A stretch of 64,000 nucleotides of DNA from Rothia gullae (GTDB taxonomy: Bacteria > Actinomycetota > Actinomycetes > Actinomycetales > Micrococcaceae), in NCBI RefSeq assembly GCF_024294905.1, contig NZ_JANCOC010000010.1:30347-94346 (forward strand), read 5' to 3'. Made by a program: the position numbers and the translations under genes. The notes under the pieces were generated by a model. The model had not been told where the DNA came from and searched no databases. It saw only the letters and a program-made list of their open reading frames with translations. Shown here in pieces: positions 3,577-57,065 of this stretch (position 1 is its first letter; each line of letters starts with the position of its first letter).

Positions 3577-3608
3577 CTAGTTGACTGCAGGGTTAGTTGA
3601 CGGCAGCG
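3577..3608 (-). repeat. Two 16-bp tandem units repeating the stop-codon region of the neighbouring gene
   Basis: On the plus strand, CTAGTTGACTGCAGGG (3577-3592) and TTAGTTGACGGCAGCG (3593-3608) directly abut the stop of the minus-strand gene, whose end reads TTAGCGCACTTCCACG from 3609. Read on the minus strand, each unit ends in a stop triplet (TAA or TAG), like the gene end itself. Confidence 0.7.
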
Positions 3609-4937
3609 TTAGCGCACTTCCACGGTGGCTCCAGCGAGGCTCATCAGCGCCCGGTTCGTCAGCGGAAGGTACCCGTTCAGGGCGCTCAAAATCAGCTGCA
3701 TGATGCGCTCTTCATCCTCCACGCTCAGCCCGCGCGGAATACCCACACCCGGCACGCAGATGCGCTGCTTATACAGGTCAATCACCGCGCACACGGTGCG
3801 GTTCGGCACGCCCAACACCGGCAGCATGCCTCGGTGATTGATGGTGCGCAGGCCCTTACCGACCACGGCGGCGGTGCGGATATCCGGGCGGGCACTCCTC
3901 GCGAACCGGGAGGCGCCCGCACCGTTCGCAAAAGCGGCAGGGTCGGGAATACTATTCGGCACCGCACTCTTCTCGTTCAGCACAGACAGGAGCGGCTCCC
4001 CCACCGCGGCGGTGACCGCCACGTAGCGTACCTGCCGGTCCATAGCGTTGAGGAAGTCCAGTTCCACGTACTCCTCCACGCGGTAGTTATCGACCAGGCC
4101 GGCTTCACCCGATCCGGTTTCCTCCACGGTTCGGGTGATGACTTCTTCATCGTAGAAGCTTGCCACGCACACCTGCGAGGCGCCGCGTTCAATGCGGGCG
4201 CGGCATTGGTAGTCGTCGTCGAGCAGCCAGAGGGACAGATCGTAGCCATCAGGCACATCGCGCACACCGGTCGCAAGCAGCACTTCGCCGCCGCCCAGGG
4301 AGAACGGTTCCCAGCCAGCCGGTTCAAAAGCGTTGAGGGCACCGTCCAGGGCTGGGTTGCAGGATCCGAGGCTCGGCGCTTGATCAGCCGGGGTGAACGC
4401 CTCAGTGGAGGGCATGGCGATAGTCAGCCCGCGCATCCTGCCAGCAAGGCAGAGCTCAACCGCCATGAGCAGGTGACCCGCACCTTCACGGCTCAGAGCT
4501 GGGCTCTGAACCAGGTGCGCCACGCCGGAGTTGTCCAGGCTGAGGTGTTCGCCAACTCCGCGGGCGGCGTTCGAGTAGCGGTTATGCAGCCGCACCAGCT
4601 CGTCAATGGGCAGGGCGCGGCCCACGGCGCCGAACGCCTTGGCGATAGCGTGAACGTGTTCGGGGAAGACGCGGCAGAGCCTGCCGAGCTGACGGGCAAA
4701 CTCTGCCGGACGCTGCGTGAGCACGCCCAGCAGGGTGCCAAGGTTCTGCTGGCGGTAGGCGTTGAGTAGCTGGGCGACGGTGGCGGGTTCAAGCTGCTCG
4801 ATAGCGCCCCTCTTGGGGAGGCGGGATCCCTGGCGGTTGAGGGTTGCGGTGGCGTCGCGGCTGCCCGCGGACTGCTCTGATGAGTTTTTGCCTGCTTGTG
4901 CGTCTACTTGTTGATAGTAGGTTCCCAACTGCGTCAC
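3609..4937 (-). CDS. Conserved-looking hypothetical protein, possible distant link to the TerD-associated family
   Basis: 442 aa, no signal peptide or membrane segment, so cytoplasmic. The first half (about 45-170) is helical with repeated Leu/Arg patterns such as LLGVLTQRPAEFARQLGRL. The second half (about 215-330) is beta-rich with YDLSLWLLDDDYQC and a later VEEYVELDF...VRYVAVTAAV pattern. This pairing recalls a large actinobacterial cytoplasmic protein linked to tellurium/stress (Ter) genes, where a TerD-like beta domain has a 'DLSL-LLD' core. I infer that from memory of the pattern only; no ter genes are nearby. Monocistronic, convergent with the binding-protein array, with about 500 bp of gene-free DNA upstream. 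Function unknown. Confidence 0.6.
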   Translation of the reverse strand: MTQLGTYYQQVDAQAGKNSSEQSAGSRDATATLNRQGSRLPKRGAIEQLEPATVAQLLNAYRQQNLGTLLGVLTQRPAEFARQLGRLCRVFPEHVHAIAKAFGAVGRALPIDELVRLHNRYSNAARGVGEHLSLDNSGVAHLVQSPALSREGAGHLLMAVELCLAGRMRGLTIAMPSTEAFTPADQAPSLGSCNPALDGALNAFEPAGWEPFSLGGGEVLLATGVRDVPDGYDLSLWLLDDDYQCRARIERGASQVCVASFYDEEVITRTVEETGSGEAGLVDNYRVEEYVELDFLNAMDRQVRYVAVTAAVGEPLLSVLNEKSAVPNSIPDPAAFANGAGASRFARSARPDIRTAAVVGKGLRTINHRGMLPVLGVPNRTVCAVIDLYKQRICVPGVGIPRGLSVEDEERIMQLILSALNGYLPLTNRALMSLAGATVEVR

Positions 4938-5391
4938 GTTTTCACGACCTTGAGCTCTTCAGAGCGTTCGTTAGCTGATTCTTCGTAAGGTGACGGGCGG
5001 GGCTCAGCGCCTACCGGCAGATGGTTCGTGCACACACTCGACCGTCTGCCGGATCTTATAGTACCGGCATACAGCTGTGCCTCATTCCTTGAGCAACTAA
5101 GCTATATCAAGACGTCAGCATCAGGACCTCAGCGCTGAGATAGTACCCAGTTCTCCGCGCTGAGATGTCAGCGTTGAGCCCTGCCCGTCGGTGCGGGCGC
5201 ACGCGTTCCCTCGTGGAGGCGCCGGGCTGGGTTACCGCTGGTGACGAACCCCTTGCCCGTGCCGTGGAGGGGCATGTGCGTTCCGCAACGTTTTTTAGGC
5301 TATCAGCTTTAGCGGGCAATTACTAGGGCTAGAGTAACTATTAACTAAGGTTAAACTATCTTTTGGGTTTTGATGACTTTACACAGGCGCT
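4938..5391. other. Gene-free interval
   Basis: 454 bp between the unknown minus-strand gene and the tail of yigZ. It should hold the promoter of the gene at 3609-4937. A more AT-rich patch at about 5320-5375 contains TTAACTAAGGTTAA, a short inverted repeat (TTAAC/GTTAA). The minus-strand 70-codon frame at 5107-5319 has no convincing coding features. Confidence 0.5.
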
Positions 5392-5447
5392 CTAGCCCGG
5401 AAATCTAGGACCGTGAATCTAGGGGCCGGGAAGCTAGACCGGCAAAT
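5392..5447 (-). repeat. Four tandem copies of the yigZ gene end, each starting with CTAG on the plus strand
   Basis: Units of 13-15 bp: CTAGCCCGGAAAT (5392), CTAGGACCGTGAAT (5405), CTAGGGGCCGGGAAG (5419) and CTAGACCGGCAAAT (5434). The last one is the real end of yigZ (codons for L-P-V plus TAG). On the minus strand every unit therefore ends in TAG. Confidence 0.75.
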
Positions 5448-6120
5448 CCACCCACTGCGTATCCCCCCAAGCCACACTCGCCACACCGGAACTCAAGCTC
5501 ACCACCAGTTCCTCGGCACGCGCCAGTTCCTCCGGGCGGTCAAACACGCCCAGGGAAATCGTGGCACCCTCCGCACCGTACTCGGTACCCAGCACGTTCA
5601 GACCGGCAGCACGGATCTCGTTCTCCAGGCGGCCAGCATCCGCATGCGAACTGGGCACCTGACCCACACGCAAACGCTCACGCGAATCGAATAGCGCACC
5701 ATCCAGGGTCTGCACCACCGAATCAGTGTAGGCACGCACCAGACCGCCCGCGCCAAGCTTAATGCCACCGAAGTAACGCACGACCACCGCAACCACATCC
5801 GACAGGTCGGTGGTGCCGTCCTCGCGGGTCTGACGCGCCAGCAGCGCCTGCATCATCGGCACACCGGCGGTACCGGCGGGCTCACCATCATCGGAGGAAC
5901 GCTGAATATCGCGGTCAGCACCAATAATGAACGCCGAACACACGTGGCGGGCATCGTGGTAGGTCTTGCGCACCGAGTCAATGTAGGCGCGCGCCTCCTC
6001 AACGGTGCTCACGCGCTTGATGTGACCAATAAATTCGCTACGCTTAATTTCGAGGAGACTCTCATAGGGCTCATCGCCGCGCGGTACAAGGTATCGGTTG
6101 GCGCGAGTTTCTTCCTGCAT
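5434..6120 (-). CDS. yigZ: YigZ/IMPACT family protein
   Basis: 228 aa. It has the UPF0029/IMPACT domain over about residues 15-130, with SEFIGHIKRV, the DARHVCSAFIIG segment, RSSDDGEPAGTAGVPM and VVRYFGGIKLGAGGLVRAY, all hallmarks of YigZ. A smaller C-terminal ferredoxin-like domain (DUF1949 type) follows. IMPACT/YigZ proteins are linked to translation and nutrient-stress control, but the biochemical role of the bacterial members is poorly defined. The gene is divergent from coaE, the two starts being only 58 bp apart, so promoters must be packed between them. The 3' end carries the stop-region tandem repeats listed separately. Confidence 0.93.
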   Translation of the reverse strand: MQEETRANRYLVPRGDEPYESLLEIKRSEFIGHIKRVSTVEEARAYIDSVRKTYHDARHVCSAFIIGADRDIQRSSDDGEPAGTAGVPMMQALLARQTREDGTTDLSDVVAVVVRYFGGIKLGAGGLVRAYTDSVVQTLDGALFDSRERLRVGQVPSSHADAGRLENEIRAAGLNVLGTEYGAEGATISLGVFDRPEELARAEELVVSLSSGVASVAWGDTQWVDLPV

Positions 6121-6178
6121 GTGTCCTCCTCTAATCAGTACCTATCTATTGTGGCACAGCCCCTCAGGAGCACCGTCC

Positions 6179-6814
6179 ATGTCCCAGCCTTCTTTCCCCG
6201 CCTCCACTGTCCTGCGCCGTTACGCCCTCACCGGCGGCATCGGCAGCGGCAAGAGCACCATCGCATCCCTCTTCGTTGAGCATGGCGCGTTCCTGGTGGA
6301 TGCGGACGCTATCTCCCGCTCCCTCATGGAGCCCGGCGAGGCGGTGCTCACCCGCACGGTCGCGGAGTTCGGTGAGCATCTGCTCGAGGCGGACGGCCGC
6401 CTTAACCGCCCCGCCCTGGCGCGTATCGTGTTCAATGATGAGCAGGCACGCCTGCGTCTAAACGCGATTGTGCATCCCGCTATTCGTGAGCGTGCCGCAC
6501 AGCTGGTGGAGCAGGCGCAGTCCCAACCCGGTTTCAGCGGCGTGGTGTTGGAGGATATTCCTCTGCTCGTGGAGACCGGCGACCCGTCCGCCTTTGAAGG
6601 CGTGGTCGTGGTGCGCACTCCCCTGGCGACTCGCCTGCAACGCCTCGTATCTTCGCGCGGCATGAGTGAGGAGGATGCGCGCGCCCGCATCGCCGCGCAG
6701 GCTACCGACGAGCAGCGTGAGGCAGTCGCAGCCTGGATTATTGATAATGGCGGCTCGCTGGAGGAAACCGCCGAGCAGGTGTACGCCGTCTGGGAACAGA
6801 TGACCACCGTCTAA
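6179..6814 (+). CDS. coaE: Dephospho-CoA kinase
   Basis: 211 aa from ATG 6179, which has a CAGGAG ribosome site 9 bp upstream; the frame is open further upstream but that part overlaps the yigZ promoter side. It catalyses the last step of coenzyme A synthesis, phosphorylating the 3'-hydroxyl of the dephospho-CoA ribose with ATP. The P-loop GGIGSGKST is at residues 15-23, followed by DADAISR, the LNRPALARIVFND region, HPAIR and the lid segment with RMS-like SRGMSEEDARARIAAQ. Length and motif order match stand-alone CoaE; many mycobacterial homologues carry an extra C-terminal domain that is absent here. It is followed by a repeat and a hairpin before the convergent rpsA. Confidence 0.95.
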   Translation: MSQPSFPASTVLRRYALTGGIGSGKSTIASLFVEHGAFLVDADAISRSLMEPGEAVLTRTVAEFGEHLLEADGRLNRPALARIVFNDEQARLRLNAIVHPAIRERAAQLVEQAQSQPGFSGVVLEDIPLLVETGDPSAFEGVVVVRTPLATRLQRLVSSRGMSEEDARARIAAQATDEQREAVAAWIIDNGGSLEETAEQVYAVWEQMTTV

Positions 6815-6874: not shown

Positions 6875-6908
6875 GGCTCACTCCAGTCTGAGGCTCACTC
6901 CAGTCTGA
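6875..6908 (+). repeat. Perfect 17-bp tandem duplication downstream of coaE
   Basis: GGCTCACTCCAGTCTGA occurs twice in immediate succession (6875-6891, 6892-6908), 61 bp after the coaE stop. Each copy ends in TGA. It belongs to the same class of short intergenic tandem repeats seen across the window. Confidence 0.85.
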
Positions 6909-12505: not shown

Positions 12506-12647
12506 GCCTCCAGCGTAGGAACCCCCACACCCCGTGTATTCATAGGCAGAACTCTACCCAGAATTCACCGGCAGGATTCACCGGACCGTGAGGGCTCATC
12601 CCGCGCTTAACACACTTAACACACAACGATCCCTCATTTAGGAAACT

Positions 12648-13925
12648 ATGAAGGCACTCAAAAAATTACCCCTTCTCGTATGGATTCTCATCGCGATCAC
12701 ATCGGGTGTACTCATCGGCTTGCTGACCCCCGGAATGATTAGCGGCATCAATGACGCAACCGGCGCATCCATCGCCACCGACCTCATTGTGCAGATCTTC
12801 GTCTCCTTCTCCACCGTGTTCAGCGCCTTCCTGAGCTTCGCGATTCCGCTGATTATTATCGGCTTCATCGTGCCCGGCATTGGTTCCCTCGCGCAGGGTG
12901 CGGGCAAGATGCTCGGCATCACCGTGGGTCTGGCGTACATCTCCAGCATCCTTGCTGGCTTCCTGGCGCTGACCTGCGCACTGCTGCTCTACCCCATCAT
13001 TCTGCAGGGCCAGCAGCTCGCCTCCTTCGATAACCCCGAGAACGCACTGTCCAAGGGTTACGTCTCCTTCGAGCTGACCCCGATTATGGGTGTGCTGAGC
13101 GCACTGATTCTCTCCTTCATCCTGGGCCTGGGTATTACCGCGCTGAAGACCCGTGCGATGCTGAACCTCTTCGAGGACTTCCAGGTCATCGTTGAGAAGA
13201 TGCTCGGCTACGTGATTATCCCCCTGTTGCCGGTGCATATTGTGGGCGTATTCGCGAATATGACCCTCGCCGGTCAGGTGGCGAAGATCCTCTCCGTCTT
13301 CGGTCTTGTGTTCGTCATGGTGATTATTCTGCACTGGGTCACCCTGGCTCTGCAGTACTCGGTGGCTGGCGCTATTTCTCGCCGCAACCCCATCCAGATG
13401 ATCAAGACCATGCTCCCGGCATACTTCACCGCAATCGGTACCCAGTCTTCGGCTGCGACCATCCCGGTGACCGTGCGTTCGGCGAAGAATGCTGGCATCT
13501 CCCCCCGCGTGGTGGACTTCGCGATTCCGCTGTGCGCAACCATTCACCTCTCCGGATCCATGATCACCATTACCTCCTGCTCGGTGGCGGTGCTGTTCAT
13601 GACCGGTCAGCACCCCGACTTCGGTAGCCTAATCCCCATGATTCTGGTGCTCGGCGTGATGATGGTTGCCGCTCCCGGCGTTCCCGGCGGTGGCGTGATG
13701 ACCGCAATTGGTCTGCTGCAGTCGATGCTTGGTTTCGATGCCTCCATGATTGCCCTGATGATTGCCCTGTACCTGGCTCAGGACTCCTTCGGCACCGCAA
13801 CCAATGTGACCGGTGACGCGACCATCGCAGCCCTGACCGAGCGTATCTCCAAGGCAAGCGGCGTGAACCCCGATAAGGAAATCCGCGACGAGGACATCGA
13901 AAAGGCAGAAGCTATTTCCGCCTAA
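12648..13925 (+). CDS. Sodium:dicarboxylate/amino acid symporter (DAACS family)
   Basis: 425 aa with about eight hydrophobic segments plus two re-entrant loops. The diagnostic re-entrant loop GTQSSAATIPVTVR (about 267-280) corresponds to the serine-rich SSSSAATLP motif of GltP/DctA, and the downstream helix has IPLCATIHLSGSMITIT. These residues form the substrate and sodium sites of glutamate/aspartate/C4-dicarboxylate transporters. The substrate cannot be fixed from sequence; serine/threonine (SstT) or dicarboxylate are both possible. ATG 12648 is preceded by AGGAAACT. It is monocistronic and divergent from polA. Confidence 0.9.
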   Translation: MKALKKLPLLVWILIAITSGVLIGLLTPGMISGINDATGASIATDLIVQIFVSFSTVFSAFLSFAIPLIIIGFIVPGIGSLAQGAGKMLGITVGLAYISSILAGFLALTCALLLYPIILQGQQLASFDNPENALSKGYVSFELTPIMGVLSALILSFILGLGITALKTRAMLNLFEDFQVIVEKMLGYVIIPLLPVHIVGVFANMTLAGQVAKILSVFGLVFVMVIILHWVTLALQYSVAGAISRRNPIQMIKTMLPAYFTAIGTQSSAATIPVTVRSAKNAGISPRVVDFAIPLCATIHLSGSMITITSCSVAVLFMTGQHPDFGSLIPMILVLGVMMVAAPGVPGGGVMTAIGLLQSMLGFDASMIALMIALYLAQDSFGTATNVTGDATIAALTERISKASGVNPDKEIRDEDIEKAEAISA

Positions 13926-17142: not shown

Positions 17143-17188
17143 ATTCACCGTGGACAGTCACCGTTGAGAATAATCCCACCACCATTAA

Positions 17189-17262
17189 CCGCGAAAAGCC
17201 ACATGTGTTTCGAAAAGCCACGTCTTTGGTGGCTTCTCGAAACACATGTGGCTTTTCAGCGG
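17189..17262. repeat. Palindromic repeat, copy 1
   Basis: Core GAAAAGCCACATGTGTTTCG is mirrored by the complementary arm ending near 17258, around a centre GTCTTTGG. It lies between the convergent PIN-like gene and the 349-aa gene and could terminate both. One of five near-identical copies in the window. Confidence 0.9.
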
Positions 17263-17266
17263 CTAG

Positions 17267-19686: not shown

Positions 19687-19724
19687 CATCCGGTAGGTAA
19701 GGTACCGAGCCGTATTCACTCAAC

Positions 19725-19733
19725 TTATCCACA
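19725..19733 (+). promoter_or_regulatory. Consensus DnaA box
   Basis: TTATCCACA, an exact match to the bacterial DnaA box TTATNCACA, in the gap between the membrane protein gene and palindrome copy 3. A single box; its role is not evident. Confidence 0.4.
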
Positions 19734-19744
19734 TCCCTCTCGCT

Positions 19745-19809
19745 GAGAAGCCACATGTGTTTCGAAAAGCCACCAAAAACGTGGCTTTTCGAAACACATG
19801 TGGCTTTTC
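19745..19809. repeat. Palindromic repeat, copy 3
   Basis: Arms GAGAAGCCACATGTGTTTCG and its complement around a centre CACCAAAAACGTGG. It lies between two plus-strand genes, 60 bp upstream of the AbiEi/DUF559-like gene. Confidence 0.9.
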
Positions 19810-19868
19810 GGCGTAATAGCTAAACGTAACACTTGAACATAAATACTCTCATTTGATGCAATTAAAGC

Positions 19869-20792: not shown

Positions 20793-20794
20793 CC

Positions 20795-20866
20795 GCGAAA
20801 AGCCACATGTGTTTCGAAAAGCCACGTCTTTGGTGGCTTCTCGAAACACATGTGGCTTCTCGGCGG
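20795..20866. repeat. Palindromic repeat, copy 4
   Basis: Nearly identical to copy 1, including the GTCTTTGG centre. It lies between the convergent AbiEi/DUF559-like gene and ftsY and closes the right side of the island. Confidence 0.9.
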
Positions 20867-20878
20867 AGTATGAGGATG

Positions 20879-30748: not shown

Positions 30749-30889
30749 GTGTGCTTTTCCTTTTCTCGCCGTGTCCGCCGGGGCGTCGTCGTTGAGGGCG
30801 ACGGGCGGCGATGGTTTGTTCGTTGGTATAACTATACGTATTTTTCGAATATTCCCCGTGACGGGGAGTTTTTGTGCCAGCATGCGAAC

Positions 30890-31042
30890 CAGCCGGCATG
30901 AATTAGCCGGTGCAAACTCGCCAGTGCGAACCAGCCGGCACAAACTAGCCGGACGCAGGCGGGGGTTCCTTGAGGTACTATCCCCCCGCCCGCGCTCAAC
31001 CCAGGCGGAGGCTAGTCCAGCCGCTACTAGTCCAGTCTCCGT
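30890..31042 (-). repeat. Tandem repeats between ribD and ribE-ribB, including copies of the ribD gene end
   Basis: Directly after the ribD stop, CTAGTCCAGCCGCTA (31012-31026) and CTAGTCCAGTCTCCGT (31027-31042) repeat the ribD end CTAGTCCAGCCTCAGTT (31043 on); on the minus strand each unit reads ...CTGGACTAG. A second degenerate series of AACCAGCCGGCA-like units runs through 30890-30955. The 294-bp gap has no gene and is unusually long for the middle of an operon. Confidence 0.7.
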
Positions 31043-32353
31043 CTAGTCCAGCCTCAGTTCGGGCGCGTGGCAGGCATCCAGCTTCGGCAGGGTACGCCGC
31101 TGCCCGGGGGCCTGCGCCGTTCCGCGAGGTGCCGGCACCAGGTGCGTTGCGGTGTCATTGCCCAGCACGCGCACCGCCGGGAACATACCCAGGTCGTCCA
31201 ATTGCAGGCGCGGCGCCTGCGCGAGGGTGTCCACGAGCAGACCGTACACGGCGCTCTTACCCTGTCCCATAATCATGGGGGCGCGGTACCAGACCATCTC
31301 GTCGATGAGGTCTTCACCGGCGAAGAGGCCGACCATGCCGGGGCCGCCCTCAATCATGAGGTGCCGCACCCCGCAGGCGTACAGCTCATCGAGCAATTCA
31401 CGCGGGTCGTGGGTGAAGACCTGCAGGAAATTCTGCGGGTCCATCTCCACACCTTCGGGCGGGTTGAAGCCGCGCACGCGGTAGTTCTCGGTAATCTCGG
31501 TTTTGCCCATGACCACGCGCAGCGGCTGCTTCTCGAAGCGTTCCCCGTTGGCGTCGCGCGCGTCCAGGGTCGGGTCGTCCATGAGGGTGGTGCGGGTACC
31601 GATCATGACGGCGTCGGCGCGGTGACGAATCAGGTGCCCGTCAATGCGCGCGGCGGGGCCGGTAATCCACTTGCTCGTACCATCAACTGCCGCAATGAAC
31701 CCGTCCAGGGTGGAGGCGCTCTTTGCGGTAATGAAGGGGCGGCGTTCGGCGGCGGCAATGAACCAGCGCTCGTTCAGCAGGTAGGATGCGTTCGCGAACT
31801 CCTCCATGGCGTGCACGGTGACGCCCTGCGAGCTCAGGTAGGCGGCGCCTCCGGCTGCGTTTTCGGTGTCGTCGCTGTAGGCGTAGTAGAGTTCGCTGAT
31901 GCCCGCCTCGGCGACGGCGTGGGAGCAGGGGCCAGTGCGTCCGGTGTGGTTGCAGGGCTCGAGGCTCACGTACATGCGGGCGCCGGTGAGGTCAGTTCCC
32001 GCAGCCCGGGCGGCGGCGAGGGCGTCGGCTTCGGCGTGCGGGGTGCCTGCGCCTCGGTGGTAGCCCACGTGCAGCAGATGCCCGTGCGCGTCAGTGATGA
32101 CGGCGCCGACGAGGGGGTTCGCGCCGCGGATACCCTGGCGTGCCGCCTGCAGTGCCAGGGTCATGGCCTCTGCGTGGCTGAGCTCCTGCTCGGGGCTGGG
32201 CAGCTGAAGGGTGCGTGCGGCGGGCAACCCGGCGAGGTGACCGTACTCCGCGGCGGAATAGTCCGCATCGTTGCGCGGCGAAGATACGCTCGGGGTAACG
32301 GTTACGGGCAGGTGCGCGCTCGCCAGCACCTGTAGCGAGGGGTTCTGCGGCAT
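31043..32353 (-). CDS. ribD: Bifunctional riboflavin deaminase/reductase
   Basis: 436 aa. The deaminase domain (about 58-200) has the zinc/catalytic set GTPHAEADAL and SLEPCNHTGRTGPCSHAV. The reductase domain (about 205-400) has RPFITAKSASTLDGFIA, ADAVMIGTRTTLMDDPTLDAR and HLMIEGGPGMVGLF. Together they perform steps two and three of riboflavin synthesis. The first 55 residues are an extension beyond the usual start; an internal start is possible but no better one is seen. Its ATG directly abuts the pnuX stop codon, so the two are translationally linked. Confidence 0.95.
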   Translation of the reverse strand: MPQNPSLQVLASAHLPVTVTPSVSSPRNDADYSAAEYGHLAGLPAARTLQLPSPEQELSHAEAMTLALQAARQGIRGANPLVGAVITDAHGHLLHVGYHRGAGTPHAEADALAAARAAGTDLTGARMYVSLEPCNHTGRTGPCSHAVAEAGISELYYAYSDDTENAAGGAAYLSSQGVTVHAMEEFANASYLLNERWFIAAAERRPFITAKSASTLDGFIAAVDGTSKWITGPAARIDGHLIRHRADAVMIGTRTTLMDDPTLDARDANGERFEKQPLRVVMGKTEITENYRVRGFNPPEGVEMDPQNFLQVFTHDPRELLDELYACGVRHLMIEGGPGMVGLFAGEDLIDEMVWYRAPMIMGQGKSAVYGLLVDTLAQAPRLQLDDLGMFPAVRVLGNDTATHLVPAPRGTAQAPGQRRTLPKLDACHAPELRLD

Positions 32354-33309: not shown

Positions 33310-33337
33310 TGTTTCATAGAAAGTGTTTCATAGAAAG
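33310..33337 (-). repeat. Perfect 14-bp tandem duplication in the riboflavin leader
   Basis: TGTTTCATAGAAAG occurs twice without a gap (33310-33323, 33324-33337), inside the leader RNA between the FMN riboswitch and pnuX. Confidence 0.85.
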
Positions 33338-33364
33338 CTGCCTCGCAGAAAACCGCTGTGCTCT

Positions 33365-33428
33365 CGAGTAACAGTTTTCCCAAGCAACAGTTTTTGCGAG
33401 CAACAGTTTTCTCAAGTAACTGCTTCGG
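33365..33428 (-). repeat. Four 16-bp tandem units in the riboflavin leader
   Basis: CGAGTAACAGTTTTCC, CAAGCAACAGTTTTTG, CGAGCAACAGTTTTCT and CAAGTAACTGCTTCGG follow with an exact 16-bp period. On the transcribed strand they give AAAACTGTT repeats directly downstream of the riboswitch aptamer. Confidence 0.85.
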
Positions 33429-33491
33429 TGAACCCTGCACGCAATCCCGGTTTTCGGGAGGTGCGGCGGAGTGCGCTCCTGCCTTTTTCTG

Positions 33492-33686
33492 CTCGTGCTA
33501 CCTTCCATCCAGACTGTACTGTCGGCACCGGATTTTCACCGGTTCGGCCTCTCTTGCGGGCGGGCTTCTCTAGCGGAGTCTTGGCATCCTGTGCGGATGC
33601 GAAGATTCGTACGATTTTGCCTGCTTGCGAGAGCGGTTCGCGGGCTGTGACCGCCGGTTCGGAATTTCACCGACCCCGGAGCACGA
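33492..33686 (-). promoter_or_regulatory. FMN riboswitch (RFN element)
   Basis: On the minus strand it begins GGGGTCGGTGAAATTCCGAA, continues CCGGCGGTCACAGCCCGCGA, then a variable arm, then GGCCGAACCGGTGAAAATCC, GGTGCCGACAGTACAGTCTG and GATGGAAGGTAGCAC. This is the full conserved skeleton of the RFN aptamer, which senses FMN and shuts off riboflavin genes. A CATAAT -10-like box lies just upstream (33698-33703, minus). It controls pnuX-ribD and probably the whole operon. No clear terminator is seen after it, so the switch may act on translation or through Rho. Confidence 0.95.
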
Positions 33687-34129
33687 TGTTGATACTGATT
33701 ATGCCACAGCGCATACCGGGGGTTTAATTTGTTTTCTCTGGGATAACTTCCGTGACAAGATGACGTTTTATGACCGCATTTTTGTCTGATGCGTGGGAGC
33801 TCGTCTTTGCGGTTTGTCTTCAAAAGTCGTCTTTCCGGTACCGTTTGGGGGGCTCCACTGAGTACCTTTCGAGACTGCAATGTGTACATCTTCTACTCAG
33901 CTTGGCCGTAGGGCGTTTTTGAGAGGTTTGGCAGTCTGCTGAGGGGGTGTTTTATTACGGTTTTGTAACGATGGAGAGCACCAAACAGACCAAAGAGTGA
34001 CGGAGCCTTCTGAGAGGTTACCCAGAACACATTGAACACCCATCAATACCTTTATGACAAGGAATTATAACAATAAGGTTAAATTATTGATTTAAGTTTT
34101 AATCTAGGGGTTATTTAAGGTTATTCTTA

Positions 34130-40378: not shown

Positions 40379-40408
40379 CCCGCTACTACCTGGGCGTTCT
40401 GCAGGGGT

Positions 40409-40460
40409 TTCAGCGCGGGCGTTCAGCTGGGGTTTTCAGCGGGAGTGTTCAGCGGGGGCT
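40409..40460 (-). repeat. Four 13-bp tandem units just beyond the dprA stop
   Basis: TTCAGCGCGGGCG, TTCAGCTGGGGTT, TTCAGCGGGAGTG and TTCAGCGGGGGCT follow with an exact 13-bp period and end 3 bp before the dprA stop codon. On the minus strand every unit contains CTGAA. Confidence 0.75.
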
Positions 40461-40463: not shown

Positions 40464-42266
40464 CTACACCGCGACAGCCGGGCGGACCTTCCGCCAGCTT
40501 GTTCCACGGCTCTCCGCCAGACCGCAGCGACCCAGGTGGAACAGGTCAGCCATCACGTCGCGAGCACCCAATCCAAGAGCTGCGGCAATCTCGTCCACGC
40601 CACGGTAGGTACGCGGGCTCAAGTCGTCCCACACCCTGCCCTGTCGTTCGGTCAGCTCGTCCAGCGCGCTGGAGGATGCAGCCTGATCCCATTCGCTCTC
40701 GTGCTCGGTGCCCAGTTCGAAACCCGCGGCGGCATCGTATTCGAGGATGTCCGCGGCCTCGGTGAGTGTTTGCGCTAGTCCATCGCGTAGCAGACGGTTC
40801 GTACCCACCGAGTTCGGCGAATTAATCTGCCCCGGAACCGCCCAGAGGGTACGACCAATCTCCATCGCGTGACGAGCCGTGTTCAGGGCACCGGAACGCC
40901 AGCGCGCCTCCACCACAATGGTGTGCCGCGCCAACGCCGCAATCAGACGGTTACGCTCCAGAAAACGCCAACGCGTGGGGGTATTGCCCACGCTCACCTC
41001 GCTCATAATGAGCCCACGGTCAACAATCATGTTCAACGCATCCGAGTTCTGTGCCGGGTACAACCGGTCCAGCCCACCCGCCATGAAAGCGATGGTCGGC
41101 AGGTCGCTACTCTGCTGGGTCAGCGCCGCCCGATGCGCCGCAATATCGATGCCCATCGCACCGCCAGAAATCACCGTGTACCCGCGGCGTGCCAGCTCGG
41201 CGGCGAGGTGGGTCGTCGCCTCCGTACCGTAGATGCTCGGGTCACGCGAACCGACCAGCGCCACGCTCGGGGCAGACGCCACATCCAGCAGGTGCCGCGA
41301 ATCGCCTCGGCACCACAGCCCGTACGGTCGGTCGGGCCCTAAATCGTTCAGCTGCGGCGGCCACAGCGGATCGGCGGGAGTGACCAGCCACGCCCCGCAG
41401 GTTGCCGCCATGTGCGCCTCCGCGTTCAGGGTGCGTTCCATACGGCGGTTCCAGCGCAGGCGGCGGGTCGCGAGCGCCTTGCCGAACTTATCGCGACTCA
41501 TCTGATGCTCACCCGGCGTGTAGTAGCCATTCGCGCTACAGAACAGGGCGGACTCCCCTTCCGCGGGTGCGCCCACCGAGCGCAGAAAATCGCTGAGTTG
41601 CGTATCCGGTTCGCCGTGCTCCCAGGTGTGCTCATCCGGGATGTGCCCGGTCATCAGGTAGTGTAGGGTCAGCGGCGCTCCCAGGGTTGCGAGGGATTCG
41701 ACCACGAGCTCATCGGCGGGTTCGGCGTAGCGCATCAGCTGAGCGGTGCAGCAGCGGATGTACTCGCGGCACGCCGCCTCAACCTCCTGAGCGCTGAGGG
41801 CTGGATTGAACAGGGGCGATGGATTGAGCAGGGGTGCTGGATTGAGCAGGGGCGCAGGGTCAGAACTGCTGGAGGCTGTGCCCACCGGAGCTTCGGGGTA
41901 CACACCCTGATGCTCCGGCTGGTTCATCTCTTCCAGGTGTTTCTCTTCCAAGTACACAGGGTCATCTAAGTACACCGGGTTCAGGCAGGAGGCGAGGAAA
42001 CCCGGCAACCGCGCCGCGTTATAGGGGCTCGGCGAGGGTTCCTGCCCTAGCGACAGAATATGCGCCACCCTCTCACGCACCAGAGCGTGCGCATCCAGGG
42101 TGCGGCCTGGCAGGCGGATCTGCAGTTCCTCCTGCACAAAATCCTCCGCCGCGCGCTCTTCTGAAACATGCTCTCCCTGCGCGCGCTCTTCCGGCGCTGT
42201 TTCTTTCAGCCCATTTTCTTTCAATTCGGCCTCATCAGCTCGTTTTCTGAGCTTCTTCTCACTCAT
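40464..42266 (-). CDS. dprA: DNA-processing protein DprA with long N-terminal extension
   Basis: 600 aa, against 290-400 in most DprA. The Rossmann-type core is in about residues 300-500: SVALVGSRDPSIYG, YTVISGGAMGIDIAAHRAAL, FMAGGLDRLYPAQN, FLERNRLIAALARHTIVVEA and SGALNTARHAMEIGRTLWAVPG. A C-terminal winged helix follows (about 530-590). DprA loads RecA on incoming single-stranded DNA in transformation. The first about 150 residues are charged and low-complexity, with NPAPLLNPSPLFNP-type repeats, and look disordered; about 150-290 is a helical domain. The neighbour comM supports a DNA-uptake role. Confidence 0.93.
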   Translation of the reverse strand: MSEKKLRKRADEAELKENGLKETAPEERAQGEHVSEERAAEDFVQEELQIRLPGRTLDAHALVRERVAHILSLGQEPSPSPYNAARLPGFLASCLNPVYLDDPVYLEEKHLEEMNQPEHQGVYPEAPVGTASSSSDPAPLLNPAPLLNPSPLFNPALSAQEVEAACREYIRCCTAQLMRYAEPADELVVESLATLGAPLTLHYLMTGHIPDEHTWEHGEPDTQLSDFLRSVGAPAEGESALFCSANGYYTPGEHQMSRDKFGKALATRRLRWNRRMERTLNAEAHMAATCGAWLVTPADPLWPPQLNDLGPDRPYGLWCRGDSRHLLDVASAPSVALVGSRDPSIYGTEATTHLAAELARRGYTVISGGAMGIDIAAHRAALTQQSSDLPTIAFMAGGLDRLYPAQNSDALNMIVDRGLIMSEVSVGNTPTRWRFLERNRLIAALARHTIVVEARWRSGALNTARHAMEIGRTLWAVPGQINSPNSVGTNRLLRDGLAQTLTEAADILEYDAAAGFELGTEHESEWDQAASSSALDELTERQGRVWDDLSPRTYRGVDEIAAALGLGARDVMADLFHLGRCGLAESRGTSWRKVRPAVAV

Positions 42267-42312
42267 GACGTTCTTCTCCTCTCTTGAGTGATTCGTTCTA
42301 TAAACCGGCTCG

Positions 42313-42361
42313 CTATTTCAGCTGACCCTATTTCAGCTGGCACGCTATTTCAGCTGGCACA
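42313..42361 (-). repeat. Three tandem copies of the comM gene end
   Basis: CTATTTCAGCTGACC (42313), CTATTTCAGCTGGCACG (42328) and CTATTTCAGCTGGCACA (42345) precede the real end TTATTTCAATTGCCCC (42362). On the minus strand each reads CAGCTGAAATAG, that is Gln-Leu-Lys-stop in register with the protein end GQLK-stop. Confidence 0.85.
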
Positions 42362-43900
42362 TTATTTCAATTGCCCCTGCTGCCGCAGAAAAAGCGCCAC
42401 ATCCAGGTGCTCCCGGCTCGGGTAGGCGGCACCCTCCAAATCGGCAAGAGTCCAGGCGATACGCAACACCCGGTCGTAGCCGCGAGCCGTCAGCGTTCCG
42501 CGGTCCACGGCGGCATTCAGCTCGCCGGTGAGCTTCGCATCCAGACGCAGCGGGCCGCGCAGAATCTTGCCGTTCATCTCCGCATTCGTCTTCAACCCGT
42601 ACGGCTCCAGGCGCTCACGCTGAGCCTGCCGCGCCGCCATGACGCGCTCACGAATCTGTGCCGAACTCTCGTTCACCTGACCGCCCGCAAGCTCCGTGGA
42701 AGACACCTTCGGAACCGTCACATTCACGTCAATACGGTCCACCAGCGGGCCGGACAGCCGCCCAAAATAAGCGCGACGCTCACGCGGAGCACACGTACAC
42801 TCCGTACCGGTGCCCACGTTCATGCCGCAAGGGCACGGGTTCGCCGCCAGGATCAGCTGAAACCGCGCCGGATATGTCGCCGACGCGCTCGAACGGTCCA
42901 GGGTCACGGTTCCCGACTCCAGGGGCTGACGGAGCGAATCGAGCACCGTGCGTTTGAACTCCGGCGCCTCGTCCAGAAAGAGCACGCCGCGGTGCGCTTT
43001 AGACACGCAGCCCGGGCGGGGAATGCCGCTACCACCGCCCAGAATCGCCGGCGCGGAGGCACTATGATGCGGCGCCTCAAACGGCGGCTGACGCACCAGC
43101 TCGCTCAGGTGCTCCCCCGCCGAGCAGAGGGAACGGATCGCGGTCACCTCCATCGCGGCATCGTTGTCGAGGGTCGGGAGGATGCTCGGCAAGCGCTCCG
43201 CCAACATGGTTTTACCGGAACCGGGCGGGCCAGTCAGCAGCATGTGATGACCGCCCGCAGCGGCAATTTCCAGGGCGAAACGACCCTGCGACTGACCGGC
43301 AACATCGCTCATATCCGAGGGAATTTCAGCCGATTTCGCCACCGGGGCGCTCGCCTCCGTCTGCGGGGCGGGTGGGTAGGTCAGCTTCTTGCTCTCAGCG
43401 CCGAGAGCGGCAAAAACCTCCGCCAGGCAGCGGAAACCGCTCACCTGCGCGCCGGGAATAAGCGCCGCCTCCTCAGCATTTTCGGCGGGCACAATCACGC
43501 GGTGGTGTCCGGCATCCACGGCGGCTTTGACCGCCGGCAGGATGCCCGGCACAGGGCGTAGCGTTCCGTCCAGTCCCAGCTCCCCCAGGAAGACGCTATC
43601 ACCGCTGGGGTGCAGTTTCTTCTCCGCCTGCAATGCCGCAACCACAATGGCTAGGTCGAACGCCGAGCCTCGTTTGGGTAGGGTCGCGGGGGTCAGGTTC
43701 ACGGTGAGCCGGTGCTGAGTGAGGGTTATGCCGGTGTTCTTCGCCGCGGAGCGCACACGCTCTTTAGACTCGTTGAGGGCGGTATCGGGCAGACCCAGCA
43801 GTACGAAGCCGGGCAAGCCCTGCGAGATGTCAGCCTCGACGTCAACAATATGCCCACGCAAGCCCACGAGCGCCACGGAATAGGTGCGTGCGAATCCCAT
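42362..43900 (-). CDS. comM: YifB/ComM-family AAA+ ATPase (Mg-chelatase-like)
   Basis: 512 aa. The N-terminal Lon-like domain (about 1-170) reads YSVALVGLRGHIVDVEADIS and GLPGFVLLGLPDTALNESKERVR. The AAA+ domain has Walker A LLTGPPGSGKTMLAERLPSI, Walker B GVLFLDEAPEF and the sensor region LILAANPCPCG with a four-Cys-like cluster. A C-terminal helical domain contains RGYDRVLRIAWTLADLEG. ComM is a helicase that drives branch migration during natural transformation. The start overlaps the yraN stop by one base (TAATG), so the two are translationally coupled; dprA lies just downstream. Confidence 0.94.
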   Translation of the reverse strand: MGFARTYSVALVGLRGHIVDVEADISQGLPGFVLLGLPDTALNESKERVRSAAKNTGITLTQHRLTVNLTPATLPKRGSAFDLAIVVAALQAEKKLHPSGDSVFLGELGLDGTLRPVPGILPAVKAAVDAGHHRVIVPAENAEEAALIPGAQVSGFRCLAEVFAALGAESKKLTYPPAPQTEASAPVAKSAEIPSDMSDVAGQSQGRFALEIAAAGGHHMLLTGPPGSGKTMLAERLPSILPTLDNDAAMEVTAIRSLCSAGEHLSELVRQPPFEAPHHSASAPAILGGGSGIPRPGCVSKAHRGVLFLDEAPEFKRTVLDSLRQPLESGTVTLDRSSASATYPARFQLILAANPCPCGMNVGTGTECTCAPRERRAYFGRLSGPLVDRIDVNVTVPKVSSTELAGGQVNESSAQIRERVMAARQAQRERLEPYGLKTNAEMNGKILRGPLRLDAKLTGELNAAVDRGTLTARGYDRVLRIAWTLADLEGAAYPSREHLDVALFLRQQGQLK

Positions 43901-48828: not shown

Positions 48829-49728
48829 GTGAGCAAAAAGCCCATCAACAGCAACGACCTGCCCACGCTGCAGGATCTTCAGCGGATTCAACGCAACCTG
48901 CCCAAGCTGCCCGATTCGATGGACCCGCAGAAGAAGCGCCTCATATACGGTCTGCTCGCTGTGTTTGCCGTGATCGTACTGATTATTGGTCTGGTCTACG
49001 TGAGTAAGAACGGTGTGGACGGGCTACTCGGTTCGGATAAGACGACCTCCGCCACCGATAATGAAGAGACCAACGTTCAGACCGAAACCCTCGCCGAGGT
49101 CAAAAACCCGTACAATGCGGTTGATCCCGCGACTGCGCTCGCACCGGATCTGGCGACCGCGAAGAGCGAGCTGGCGTCCCTGCAGGTGAAGGAACGCGCG
49201 TCGAAGGCTGGCTACTCTCGTGATCAGTTCGGTCCCGCCTGGGATGACGTTGACGGCAACAAGTGCAACACTCGCGACGACATTCTGCGCCGCGACCTGA
49301 CCAATGTTCGTTTCAAGGTCAGGACCCACGCATGCACCTTGATTAGTGGCACTCTGGATGACCCGTACACCGGCAAAACCATAGAGTTCAAGCGCGGCAA
49401 GAAGACCTCCTCGGCTGTGCAGATCGACCACGTAATTGCTCTTTCGAACGCATGGCAGACCGGCGCGCAGGATTTGACCGCAGAGCAGCGCCGCCAGCTG
49501 GCGAACGACCCGGAGAACCTGCTCGCTGCAGACGGCCCGGCGAACCAGCAGAAGTCCGATGCAGACGCCGCCGACTGGCTGCCGAGCAACACCGCTTACC
49601 GCTGCACCTACGTGGCACGCCAGGTACACGTGAAGGCGAAGTACAAGCTATGGGTGACCGCGGACGAGAAGAAAGTTATGGAACGCGTCCTCAACTCTTG
49701 CAAGGACACCAACCCAACCAAGAAATAG
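48829..49728 (+). CDS. Membrane-anchored HNH nuclease (DUF1524-like)
   Basis: 299 aa from GTG 48829, which has CTGGAG 5 bp upstream; a GTG 13 codons earlier lacks a ribosome site. A short basic cytoplasmic part, one membrane helix (about 39-60: LIYGLLAVFAVIVLIIGLVY), a polar linker, then the nuclease domain (about 120-295). Its HNH core is VQIDHVIALSNAWQTGA, LANDPENLLAADGPANQQKSDADAADWLP with the conserved His, Asn and Lys. By topology the nuclease faces outside. Two Cys pairs (NKCNTRDD, THACTLI, YRCTYV, NSCKD) may form disulphides. It could cut external DNA for nutrition, uptake or competition. Confidence 0.88.
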   Translation: MSKKPINSNDLPTLQDLQRIQRNLPKLPDSMDPQKKRLIYGLLAVFAVIVLIIGLVYVSKNGVDGLLGSDKTTSATDNEETNVQTETLAEVKNPYNAVDPATALAPDLATAKSELASLQVKERASKAGYSRDQFGPAWDDVDGNKCNTRDDILRRDLTNVRFKVRTHACTLISGTLDDPYTGKTIEFKRGKKTSSAVQIDHVIALSNAWQTGAQDLTAEQRRQLANDPENLLAADGPANQQKSDADAADWLPSNTAYRCTYVARQVHVKAKYKLWVTADEKKVMERVLNSCKDTNPTKK

Positions 49729-49787
49729 CCCCGGCCAAGAATTGATTCCCGCAAAGAAGTAATCCCAGCCTAGAAATAGCCGCCCGG
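49720..49787 (+). repeat. Four 17-bp tandem units starting with the HNH gene end
   Basis: AAGAAATAGCCCCGGCC (49720, containing the real K-K-stop), AAGAATTGATTCCCGCA (49737), AAGAAGTAATCCCAGCC (49754) and TAGAAATAGCCGCCCGG (49771) have an exact 17-bp period. Three later TAG/TGA/TAA triplets fall near the same place in each unit. Confidence 0.85.
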
Positions 49788-52955: not shown

Positions 52956-53026
52956 CATCTTCACGAGGTACATCTTCACGAGGCAGACACACCCGGCAAG
53001 TTCCCATTCAACAGTTCCCGTTCAAC
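52956..53026 (+). repeat. Two perfect or near-perfect doublets in the def leader
   Basis: CATCTTCACGAGGTA/CATCTTCACGAGGCA (52956, 52971; one mismatch) and AGTTCCCATTCAAC/AGTTCCCGTTCAAC (52999, 53013; one mismatch), ending 19 bp before the def start. Confidence 0.8.
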
Positions 53027-53045
53027 ACAAGCAAAGGATAATTCC

Positions 53046-53618
53046 GTGGCTATTCGCCCCATCGTTATTCACGGCAACCCCGTTCTGCACCGCCCCGCGG
53101 CACCCGTCACCGAGTTTAATGATGAGCTCAAGGAACTCGTGGCTGACATGTACGAGACCATGGACGCATCCAACGGCGTGGGCCTGGCGGCACCGCAGAT
53201 TGGTGTGGGCCTGCGCATCTTCACCTACAAGATGGAGAATGAGGACGGCGTTCCCCCGCGCGGCTGCATCATCAACCCGGTACTGACCCTGGGCAAGATT
53301 TCTACCGCTGACCCGGACCCCTACGAGGAAGAAGAGGGCTGTCTGTCCTTCCCCGGTTACGGCTTCCCCCTCAAGCGCGCCGAGTGGGTGACTGTGAACG
53401 GTCTTGACGAGCACGGCAACCCCGTCCAGTTTGAGGCGACCGGCTGGTTCGCACGTTGCATGCAGCACGAAACTGACCACCTGGACGGCAAGCTGTACGT
53501 GAACCGCCTGAACAAGAAGTGGACCGGCAAGATGAAGAAGGTCGTGAAGAAGGAAGGCTGGACCGTTGACGGTAACTCGTGGATGCCCGGCGTGGATCCG
53601 GATCCGTTCGGCCACTAA
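53046..53618 (+). CDS. def: Peptide deformylase
   Basis: 190 aa from GTG 53046, with AAAGGA 8 bp upstream. It removes the formyl group from new proteins. All three motifs are present: GVGLAAPQIG, EEGCLSFPG (zinc Cys) and MQHETDHLDGKLYV, the HExxH with metal His residues. The internal segment DVDGNKC-like insertions are absent; size is normal. The C-terminus carries a Lys-rich tail (KKWTGKMKKVVKKEG) typical of actinobacterial Def. A strong terminator follows. Confidence 0.97.
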   Translation: MAIRPIVIHGNPVLHRPAAPVTEFNDELKELVADMYETMDASNGVGLAAPQIGVGLRIFTYKMENEDGVPPRGCIINPVLTLGKISTADPDPYEEEEGCLSFPGYGFPLKRAEWVTVNGLDEHGNPVQFEATGWFARCMQHETDHLDGKLYVNRLNKKWTGKMKKVVKKEGWTVDGNSWMPGVDPDPFGH

Positions 53619-53709: not shown

Positions 53710-53747
53710 CCATTAGCCGATGATGTTTTCCGTCAGCTAACGGTAGC

Positions 53748-55419: not shown

Positions 55420-56364
55420 TTACTGTTCAGTCAGGCTGGTCCATGTGACGGCGGGTTCGGTGCTTGCCGAGTGCGCCTCCTGACCGGTTGCCACGCCAGT
55501 GGAGACGGTGAAGTCCCACGGGTCGGTGTTCAGCGTGGACAGCTTCGTTTCGATGGTGAAGCCGCGCTCAGCGAGCAGGGCGCGCAGGCGGTTTGCCGCC
55601 GACTGCAACCACAGGGATTCGCTGGCTGCGTGGGAACAATCAATCAGAGCGATGTTGCTGCCGTCAACTCGTGCAGTTTCACGGAATTCACTGGCGGGGT
55701 GGTGGCGCAGGTCGGCGGTGATGTACACCTGCGCGTCGGTGGCACGCACGGCGCCGAAGAGAGAGTCACCGGCACCGCCGCAGAGGGCGACGCGGCGGAT
55801 TGGCTGGTCGGCGCGTCCGGCGATGCGCAGGCCACCGGCGGTTGCGGGCAGCACCGCAGCGAGGCGTTCTGCCAGTTCCTTGAGGGTGATTTCTTCAGGT
55901 AGGGTGCCGAGGCGACCGGTGCCTACCGTGTGTTCCTGTTCGTCGAGTACCTGGGTTTGTGCTTCGGTAAGCGGTTCACAATCAATCAGGCCGATAGCCT
56001 CACAGAGTGCTTCATTCACGCCTTCAACGGCGGCATCTGCGTTGGTGTGCGCGCCGAGCAGGCCGCATCCACCTTCGATGAGGGTGTGCAGAACGTTGCC
56101 CTTATAGTCGCTGTCAGGGATGAACTTTGCGCCGCGTAGCAGTAGCGGGTGGTGGGTGATGAGTAGTTGCGCGCCTTCGGCTACGGCTTCTTCGGCGGTG
56201 GCGGTGAGGGCATCCACCGCAAAGAGGACGGTGCTCACTTTAGCGGCGCCACGTCCGGCGACGAGGCCGGAGGCGTCCCATCCGGCGGCGAGTTGCGGCG
56301 GGAAGAGCGTGTGGAAGGCGTCGACGACTTCTGCGAGGGTGGGGGTTTCTAGTTTTTCAGTCAT
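55420..56364 (-). CDS. Nif3-like dinuclear metal-centre protein
   Basis: 314 aa. NIF3/YbgI family: an N-terminal half with WDASGLVAGR, LFAVDALTATAEEAVAEGAQ and LLITHHPLLLRGAKF (metal His pair), GAHTNADAAVEGVNEALCE; and a C-terminal half with LCGGAGDSLFGAVRATDAQVYITADLRHH and IALIDCSHAASESLWL. The members form hexameric toroids with two metals per subunit; some are annotated as GTP cyclohydrolase I type 2, but the function is unsettled. It lies convergent to yaaA and divergent from msrA. Confidence 0.92.
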   Translation of the reverse strand: MTEKLETPTLAEVVDAFHTLFPPQLAAGWDASGLVAGRGAAKVSTVLFAVDALTATAEEAVAEGAQLLITHHPLLLRGAKFIPDSDYKGNVLHTLIEGGCGLLGAHTNADAAVEGVNEALCEAIGLIDCEPLTEAQTQVLDEQEHTVGTGRLGTLPEEITLKELAERLAAVLPATAGGLRIAGRADQPIRRVALCGGAGDSLFGAVRATDAQVYITADLRHHPASEFRETARVDGSNIALIDCSHAASESLWLQSAANRLRALLAERGFTIETKLSTLNTDPWDFTVSTGVATGQEAHSASTEPAVTWTSLTEQ

Positions 56365-56531
56365 ACCTCTATTGTGGCAGGTAACGCGGCGGGGCAGGTG
56401 GCGCAGTGGGGATGTGGGTGGTTTACGCCAAAGCCTGCGGTAGCGCAGGAATATTGTGCGGCCCTACGGTGTTCTTTAGGTAGTGTGGTTCTCTAAGTGT
56501 TAGTTCGAGACCCAATATTCGAGGAGGAATC

Positions 56532-57053
56532 ATGACTGATGTTGTTCTTGCCGGCGGCTGTTTCTGGTGCCTGGATGCGGTGTACCGCCAGTTCCGCGGG
56601 ATTGAGGCGAGCGTCTGCGGCTACACGGGCGGCGATACTCCCGACCCTGATTATCGTTCGGTGTGTTCGGGTGCGACCGGGCATCAGGAGGCGCTGAAGC
56701 TCAGCTTTGACCCGCAGGTCATTGGCCTGGATACGGTGCTGGATATTTTCTTCACTAGCCACGATCCGACCAGCTGGGATCGTCAGGGTGCGGATACCGG
56801 TTCACAGTACCGTTCGGTGCTTTTCTACGCGGATGAGCAGCAGCGTGAGGCGTTTGAGCGTGCGGTGGCGCGTGCTCAGCAGCTGTACTCCTCCCCCATT
56901 GTTACGCAGATTAAGCCCCTGGGTGTGTTCTATGAGGCTGAGGATTATCACCAGAACTATTACGCGTTGAATCCGGCGCAGGGTTATTGTGCGTTTGTGG
57001 TGAGCCCGAAGGTGGCTCAGGCGCGCCGTAATTTTGCGCAGCTGCTCCGTTAG
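56532..57053 (+). CDS. msrA: Peptide methionine sulfoxide reductase A
   Basis: 173 aa. It reduces methionine-S-sulfoxide in proteins. The catalytic motif is AGGCFWCLDAVYRQ at residues 7-20, with the nucleophile Cys; the usual Glu after it is Asp here. Further marks are GYTGGDTPDPDYRSVCSGATGHQEA, PTSWDRQGADTGSQYRSVLFY and FYEAEDYHQNYY. The ribosome site is GAGGAGG. The stop region is tandemly duplicated, and a terminator follows at 57105-57143. Confidence 0.96.
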   Translation: MTDVVLAGGCFWCLDAVYRQFRGIEASVCGYTGGDTPDPDYRSVCSGATGHQEALKLSFDPQVIGLDTVLDIFFTSHDPTSWDRQGADTGSQYRSVLFYADEQQREAFERAVARAQQLYSSPIVTQIKPLGVFYEAEDYHQNYYALNPAQGYCAFVVSPKVAQARRNFAQLLR

Positions 57054-57065
57054 CTGCTCCGTCAG
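57042..57065 (+). repeat. 12-bp duplication of the msrA gene end
   Basis: CTGCTCCGTTAG (codons L-L-R-stop) is followed at once by CTGCTCCGTCAG, then a weaker third copy TCGGTGCGTCCG. Confidence 0.8.

Follow-up and report, generated by a model that had tools for sequence, protein, structure and literature searches.

Why should the DNA at the stop codons of several unrelated genes repeat itself? The question is raised by a 64,000-nucleotide stretch of Rothia gullae DNA (contig NZ_JANCOC010000010.1, hereafter the window), in which a preliminary description had reported tandemly duplicated stop-codon regions at six gene ends. Such arrays exist, are restricted to one lineage of the genus among the genomes sampled, show a mode in unit length, are filtered for reading frame inside genes, are polymorphic in copy number between relatives and have no 6- or 7-mer in common. 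They are probably the product of a lineage-specific short tandem-duplication process which requires little homology and whose copies are tolerated wherever the first copy keeps the protein intact. A mutational cause, and a copying step with little need for homology, are inferred.

The window appears to come from a member of the R. mucilaginosa group, judging by its ComM protein, which shares 99% identity with the counterpart in Rothia sp. RSM386 and 81% with the one in R. aeria, and by its GC content of 59.7%, set beside the published 59.5% (PMC12352080). Four genomes of the same group, G016, G017, G001 and G015, served as its relatives. The ComM match to the window is 99% in the first three and 94% in G015, and 28 of the 32 syntenic blocks longer than 1.5 kb which the window shares with G016, G017 and G001 exceed 90% identity (range 79.5-98.1%). 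For these three relatives, gene ends are 91-97% identical. R. aeria (G002) and R. aerolata (G005) were used as Rothia comparisons outside the group. Gene ends are throughout those of open reading frames (ORFs) called from codon usage rather than from annotation.

Six arrays at gene ends and their copy number

The six arrays of the window, several of them also found by Tandem Repeats Finder (TRF), are as follows.

3571..3612, minus strand: array at the 3' end of an unknown gene (3609-4937, minus), period 16, p 0.001; TRF 3578-3612
5392..5440 (limits set by eye), minus strand: degenerate array at the 3' end of yigZ (5434-6120, minus), period about 14-15
31012..31058, minus strand: array at the 3' end of ribD (31043-32353, minus), three units of CTGGACTAG, period 16, p 0.011
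42307..42369, minus strand: array at the 3' end of comM (42362-43900, minus), four CAGCTGAAATAG-like units, period 17, TRF score 84, p 0.001
49713..49781, plus strand: degenerate array at the 3' end of the "HNH" gene (48829-49728, plus), four AAGAAATAG-like units, period 17, TRF, p 0.001
57040..57075, plus strand: 12-nt duplication of CTGCTCCGTTAG at the 3' end of msrA (56532-57053, plus), TRF, lag 12, p 0.001

All six periodic repeats are thus present at or just past the stop codon, with p between 0.001 and 0.013 when the stretch from -20 to +70 around each stop is compared with 1000 dinucleotide shuffles. An earlier, harsher test (stronger mismatch penalty, longer stretch, 100 shuffles) gave weaker results at yigZ (p 0.03) and at the HNH gene (p 0.069). 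The proposal that the last 12-17 nt of the coding sequence are repeated holds roughly for comM, ribD, the HNH gene and msrA and fails at the other two sites. The array of the unknown gene spans positions -4 to +38 relative to the end of the stop (best lag 16), so that just the final 4 nt of the coding sequence lie inside it, and its later copies hold more TAA and TAG triplets. At yigZ, where the units carry a CTAGATT-like core (lag 14, p 0.013), the best ungapped match covers +10 to +37 and hence begins 10 nt past the stop. The units differ between genes and do not form one family, as had been stated, and no significant common 6- or 7-mer was found in 263 arrays of G016.

The protein of the unknown gene has no match in Pfam or NCBIfam. 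The product of the "HNH nuclease" gene is matched by Pfam GmrSD_C (E 6.4e-25), a domain that forms the C-terminus of GmrSD restriction endonucleases. No relative of ribD was found in IMG/VR, and four records of a phage collection gave distant RibD matches. A similarity search against E. coli returned no match, and E. coli DNA enters none of the counts.

A comparison of strains, which the preliminary description had recommended, reveals that unit number (counted by eye) differs among close relatives at each of the six sites. At comM there are four units in the window, three in G017 and in G016, two in G001 and one in G015; at ribD three in the window, two in G017 and in G001, two or three eroded ones in G016 and one in G015. 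The HNH gene has about four units in the window, three in G017, one in G016, two in G001 and one in G015, and the unknown gene has about three in the window and in G017 as opposed to one in G016 and in G001. The two units of msrA are shared by the window and G017, while G016, G001 and G015 have one; relative to the single-copy G016, the window carries an extra 12 nt directly after the stop codon. At yigZ, arrays of several units and varying number occur in the window and all four relatives. With G015 as the outside reference, most of these changes look like gains, as far as a few sites suggest. In a survey of 30 genomes of the genus, a comM array was seen only in G001 among 17 usable rows (11 of the 30 rows held no ORF, one strand having been read, and the rows of G017 and G023, which held a wrong ORF, were left out).

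Adjacent near-identical copies in one strain thus face a single copy in a close relative, as expected of short tandem duplications. Across 767.7 kb aligned between G016 and G017, 65 of the 670 insertions and deletions (indels) of 6-40 nt are of duplication type by a strict rule (28 of 418 in non-coding and 37 of 252 in coding DNA), and their lengths peak at 14-15 nt. A separate strict classification of indels found few duplications because degenerate copies fail its criteria. Among indels of 9-24 nt, lag-periodic ones (p at most 0.05) make up 12/17 at -20..-1, 4/22 at 0..19, 1/15 at 20..39, 11/27 at 40..79 and 13/42 at 80..149.

Density across genomes and away from stop codons

Intergenic DNA was scanned for arrays with a period of 8-30 nt and compared with the mean of three shuffles. 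In the first 400 kb of G016, the intergenic DNA amounts to 86.0 kb and holds 112 arrays (1.30 per kb), as opposed to 1.3 arrays (0.02 per kb) after shuffling; 500 kb of G017 contain 118 in 107.5 kb (shuffles 2.3) and the window 25 in 17.7 kb (shuffles 0.7). These three therefore carry 1.1-1.4 arrays per kb. Outside the group, R. aeria yielded 11 arrays in 83.7 kb (shuffles 5.0) and R. aerolata 12 in 43.7 kb (shuffles 1.3), densities of 0.13-0.27 per kb. Actinobacterial controls of higher GC content reach 0.54-1.28 arrays per kb, with shuffles that are also higher (0.07-0.23 per kb) and, in two of three groups, with more arrays in genes as well. Arrays at stops, as counted below, are found at 47 of 641 gene ends in G016 vs 1 of 235 in R. 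aeria and R. aerolata together, and at 5 of 554 ends in the actinobacterial controls, where 12 arrays start at positions 5 to 22; these 554 ends include 47 from Rothia, some of which belong to the species of G002 and G005.

Arrays are by no means confined to stops. Over 1.2 Mb of G016, more than 10 nt separate 195 of the 263 non-coding arrays from the nearest gene 3' end. The periods of non-coding arrays peak at 14-15 nt and drop beyond 19. Coding DNA of G016 holds 335 arrays (0.370 per kb), of which 327 have lags that are multiples of three, with a peak at 15. The coding density is 0.289 per kb in G017 (110 arrays), 0.106 in R. aeria (22) and 0.080 in R. aerolata (12), the value for G016 being 3.5-4.6 times that of the two species outside the group. 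No array was seen across the edge of a start codon, where 4.8 would be expected in G016, 6.2 in G017 and 1.2 in the window. Of the two outcomes that were to refute the preliminary description, a lack of enrichment over shuffled sequence is contradicted by the strong excess, whereas a placement of the repeats independent of stops is indeed seen as well. Among the publications listed on Rothia together with tandem or intergenic repeats (in one set, 15 of 323), no description of these arrays was found in titles and the opening lines of abstracts. In the G016 contig C1 (2292716 bases), yigZ lies both at 3416 and at 2287233; its presence at both ends suggests a circular assembly with an untrimmed overlap.

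Within the window, p values of at most 0.01 (1000 shuffles) are obtained at 8 of 49 gene 3' ends, 5 of 48 5' flanks and 1 of 49 mid-gene stretches, and values of at most 0.05 in the harsher test at 12 of 49, 12 of 48 and 5 of 49, respectively. The label "stop-codon regions" was right for the arrays at stops and yet too narrow, because 5' flanks and stop-free intergenic DNA show the same; most arrays lie elsewhere, in-frame ones in coding DNA included. The arrays away from stops, one array just past the stop of dprA and one neighbouring element are listed here.

6875..6908, no strand assigned: perfect 17-nt intergenic duplication, beginning 61 nt past the stop at 6814; TRF
12559..12624, plus strand: two duplications, of 13 nt and 9 nt, in the 5' flank of the gene starting at 12648; TRF (12559-12584 listed)
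30887..30952, no strand assigned: intergenic 14-nt array of 4.7 degenerate units in the gap downstream of ribD, past the stop array; TRF
33370..33420, no strand assigned: intergenic 16-nt array of 3.2 units away from stops, beside the flavin mononucleotide (FMN) riboswitch; TRF
33491-33688, minus strand: FMN riboswitch; Rfam
40392..40459, minus strand: array downstream of dprA (40464-42137, minus), starting 5 nt past the stop, period 13/26, about five degenerate units; TRF
52999..53027, plus strand: 14-nt duplication upstream of the gene starting at 53046; TRF

The unit number of the array downstream of dprA, again counted by eye, varies in G017, G016 and G001. Two tandem arrays (33310-33420) lie between the FMN riboswitch and its downstream genes, ribD included. 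Elsewhere in the window, a perfect 24-nt repeat of 3.1 copies (57347-57421, TRF score 150) lies where ORFs overlap on both strands, and two adjoining 15-nt arrays of 6.6 and 3.9 copies (63851-64000) extend to the end of the window, possibly within a repeat-rich coding region. A dispersed palindromic element, GAAAAGCCACATGTGTTTCG-like together with its complement, occupies several intergenic gaps within 4 kb (about 17143-17266, 19687-19868 and 20793-20878).

Origin of the copies and the excess at stop codons

In the R. mucilaginosa group, an ongoing mutational process would duplicate stretches of about 10-20 bp (mode 14-15) in tandem, whatever their sequence, coding or not, and selection would then filter them, with genes keeping almost only multiples of three, start codons almost none and intergenic DNA any length. 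If a unit lies over a stop codon, the first copy would still end in a stop and a second stop triplet would fall in a random frame; the duplication would be kept because the first copy leaves the protein unchanged. Copies would afterwards be gained, lost and eroded. A recurring process and duplication tolerated in 3' untranslated regions (UTRs) were among the readings offered at the outset, and both are backed by the density of the arrays, the differences between strains and the unrelated units.

The ends of perfect two-copy arrays outside gene interiors (n=77, orthologues of G016 and G017 counted apart) bear on how the copies are made. The matching run exceeds the lag by 0, 1, 2 and 3 nt in 21, 12, 4 and 1 arrays, which by simple arithmetic is close to the chance expectation for no microhomology. 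This may speak against slippage between pre-existing short repeats, within the reach that eroded ends leave to the test. Ku was found in none of nine Rothia genomes, the search having matched B. subtilis among 14 control genomes; duplication through fill-in of staggered breaks and non-homologous end joining (NHEJ), in the form so far known, is therefore unlikely. Loss of mismatch repair was considered as well. MutS1 is found in 0/9 and NucS in 9/9 of the Rothia genomes, so neither sets the mucilaginosa group apart and a loss of MutS in the group as opposed to its relatives is not seen.

Several observations weigh against the proposed process or are left over by it. In 37 of the 77 perfect arrays the run is shorter than the lag, which indicates eroded or imprecise ends; the microhomology test is therefore blurred by decay or imprecise joining. 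No causal gene was found among the candidates checked (Ku, MutS1 and NucS). Two genomes of the same group have much lower intergenic densities, G001 with 11 arrays in 23.5 kb (0.47 per kb) and G015 with 9 in 22.3 kb (0.40 per kb), and the duplication rate may hence differ inside the group. Two 5-mers pass correction, the stop-like CTAAA (p 0.01) and CAGGG (p 0.04), and by occurrence CTAG is enriched 2.9-fold and ACAG 2.1-fold, so that array DNA is not a random sample; the enrichment of CTAG is as expected if many arrays include stops. The remaining points concern the position of arrays relative to stops. Array starts were counted over 1.2 Mb of G016 at 641 ends followed by 90 nt or more of free sequence; 47 fall at positions -20 to -3, 9 at -2 to 4, 25 at 5 to 22, 18 at 23 to 40 and 17 at 41 to 58. 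The ratio of the first to the third of these bins is 1.9, as opposed to 0.79-1.07 in a neutral simulation which lets duplications fall uniformly, freezes the stop and constrains the coding sequence but includes neither terminators nor other 3' UTR constraint (p 0.0002-0.014 vs the adjacent bin). Arrays spanning the stop edge number 29 in the first 400 kb of G016 and 27 in G017, vs 8.8 (sd 2.8) and 9.7 if arrays were placed uniformly within their own intergenic region; in the window, there are 3 vs 1.3. The excess sits in the first 400 kb of G016 (28 at stops vs 6, 9 and 5 downstream), a region which includes the counterpart of the window, while the remaining 400-1200 kb have 19 at stops vs 19, 9 and 12. 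The regional difference at stops has a p of 0.0003 for a split chosen after seeing the data, and the downstream bins are alike. With dnaA at 1015 kb, the region rich in stop arrays is far from the origin. Over twelve 100-kb bins, stop-array frequency correlates with distance from dnaA (Spearman 0.67, p 0.017), with values of 0.57 (p 0.051) for all non-coding arrays and -0.26 (p 0.42) for coding ones. An approximately 2-fold excess of stop-spanning arrays in one chromosomal region is thus left over by the plain account.

These counts are what a process targeted at stops would be expected to give, one in which duplications form or survive preferentially across them, for example through DNA or RNA exposed past the end of translation. 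Arrays whose copies are at least 90% identical show the same pattern, with 15 at stops vs 7, 9 and 3 downstream in G016 (800 kb) and 14 vs 7, 5 and 5 in G017, and of the 16 duplication-type indels listed between the window and G016, G017 or G001, eight (8 of the 10 at 3' edges) begin at positions -20 to -3, identical sites recurring between genome pairs in this count. A stop-targeted process is nevertheless unlikely, as 400-1200 kb of G016 have no excess over the adjacent bin (19 vs 19) and, as noted, 195 of 263 arrays lie elsewhere. The 53 G016/G017 duplications with a unit of at least 9 nt likewise fall mostly away from stops: six are near 3' ends, 22 in other non-coding and 25 in coding DNA, and positions -20 to -3 hold five vs 0-4 in other bins of equal size. 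Measured against the length of each class (22.0 kb for DNA no more than 20 nt from a 3' end, 144.1 kb for the rest of the non-coding and 601.6 kb for the rest of the coding DNA), the rates are 0.27, 0.15 and 0.04 events per kb, somewhat higher at 3' ends on six events, which is a further point against the plain account. A lineage-specific, Ku-independent activity of R. mucilaginosa which makes blunt tandem duplications of 14-15 bp and prefers the ends of translated regions far from the origin may be put forward tentatively, as an unlikely proposition.

Two functional explanations had also been suggested. If the arrays were a 3' UTR signal or spacer, they would set the distance between stop and terminator or hold a motif bound by RNA-binding factors. 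The median distance from stop to hairpin is indeed longer at ends with arrays (57 vs 43 nt, p 0.034; hairpins were found at 23 of 47 array ends and 246 of 594 others), but subtracting the duplicated length yields 43 nt, equal to the 43 nt of array-free genes (p 0.60). A shared motif is not evident either, as no significant 6- or 7-mer is common to the 263 arrays, and turnover is fast: among 385 orthologous ends, a stop array is present in G016 alone at 22, in G017 alone at 15 and in both at 13, so that only 13 of 50 are shared. Turnover, hairpin distance and motif results are what neutral insertion gives, which makes a signal or spacer most improbable.

Selection for fail-safe stops, in which the copies provide extra stops that end read-through, has equally little to recommend it. 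TAA and TAG are commoner right after stops than 60-90 nt further on, but CTA and TTA, their equivalents on the other strand, also rise there, and in the first 15 nt past the stop TAA and TAG are rarest in frame 0 in both genomes (at 15-29 nt, frame 0 is marginally the richest in G017). The lags of stop arrays show no frame preference (17/15/15 modulo 3), so the extra stops are not placed in frame with the gene. The copies agree in 139 of 149 columns of the stop triplet and in 779 of 919 columns of its flanks (p 0.005), a retention which recurs in a first region of G017 (p 0.02) that shares ancestry with G016 and is absent from a second (25 of 29, p 1.0). Agreement in arrays far from stops is 86% (3184 of 3696 columns); if only the second copy of a stop is free to change, half the divergence and hence 93% agreement would be expected, as is seen. 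Stop retention equals one-sided decay, and selection on the copy is therefore needless. Ho and Hurst (2019; PMC6764699) report no selection for additional in-frame stops in eubacteria; the additional stops treated there resemble the arrays in placing stop triplets soon past the true stop and differ in that the frame is random here.

As a stop, TGA is almost unused in G016 (TAA 228, TAG 188 and TGA 10 of 426 ends in 800 kb) and in the window (28/21/3 of 52), and TAG is very common for an actinobacterium of 60% GC; R. aeria has 67/58/28. A loss of release factor 2 was considered and discarded, as the factor was found in all nine genomes searched.

Likeness to known repeats and meaning of the arrays

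Variable number of tandem repeats (VNTR) or minisatellite loci of bacteria and the mycobacterial interspersed repetitive units (MIRUs) consist of intergenic tandem units of variable copy number, some of which overlap a stop codon. MIRUs, however, are one related family of longer units, whereas the units described here share intergenic position and variable number but are mostly 10-20 nt long, and the lack of a significant 6- or 7-mer means that no single related unit is dispersed over the loci. Slipped-strand contingency loci, which begin from short pre-existing repeats, are likewise polymorphic in unit number between strains. In the arrays, by contrast, duplication seems to start from sequence present once and to proceed with no clear microhomology, and nothing points to a phase-variable gene.

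Small tandem duplications elsewhere, best known from eukaryotes, require little homology. Like the Rothia arrays, they consist of a short stretch, whatever its sequence, copied next to itself; in human and mouse cells they arise through fill-in synthesis at break ends followed by end joining, as set out by Schimmel et al. (PMC8355091). As that joining is NHEJ and Rothia has no Ku in the nine genomes searched, another route would be needed.

The arrays call for caution against taking repeated stop codons for regulation. With 263 non-coding arrays in 1.2 Mb, G016 offers hundreds of candidate markers for strain typing, and a bacterium with duplications of near-fixed size would be a natural system for duplication without Ku and without evident homology.

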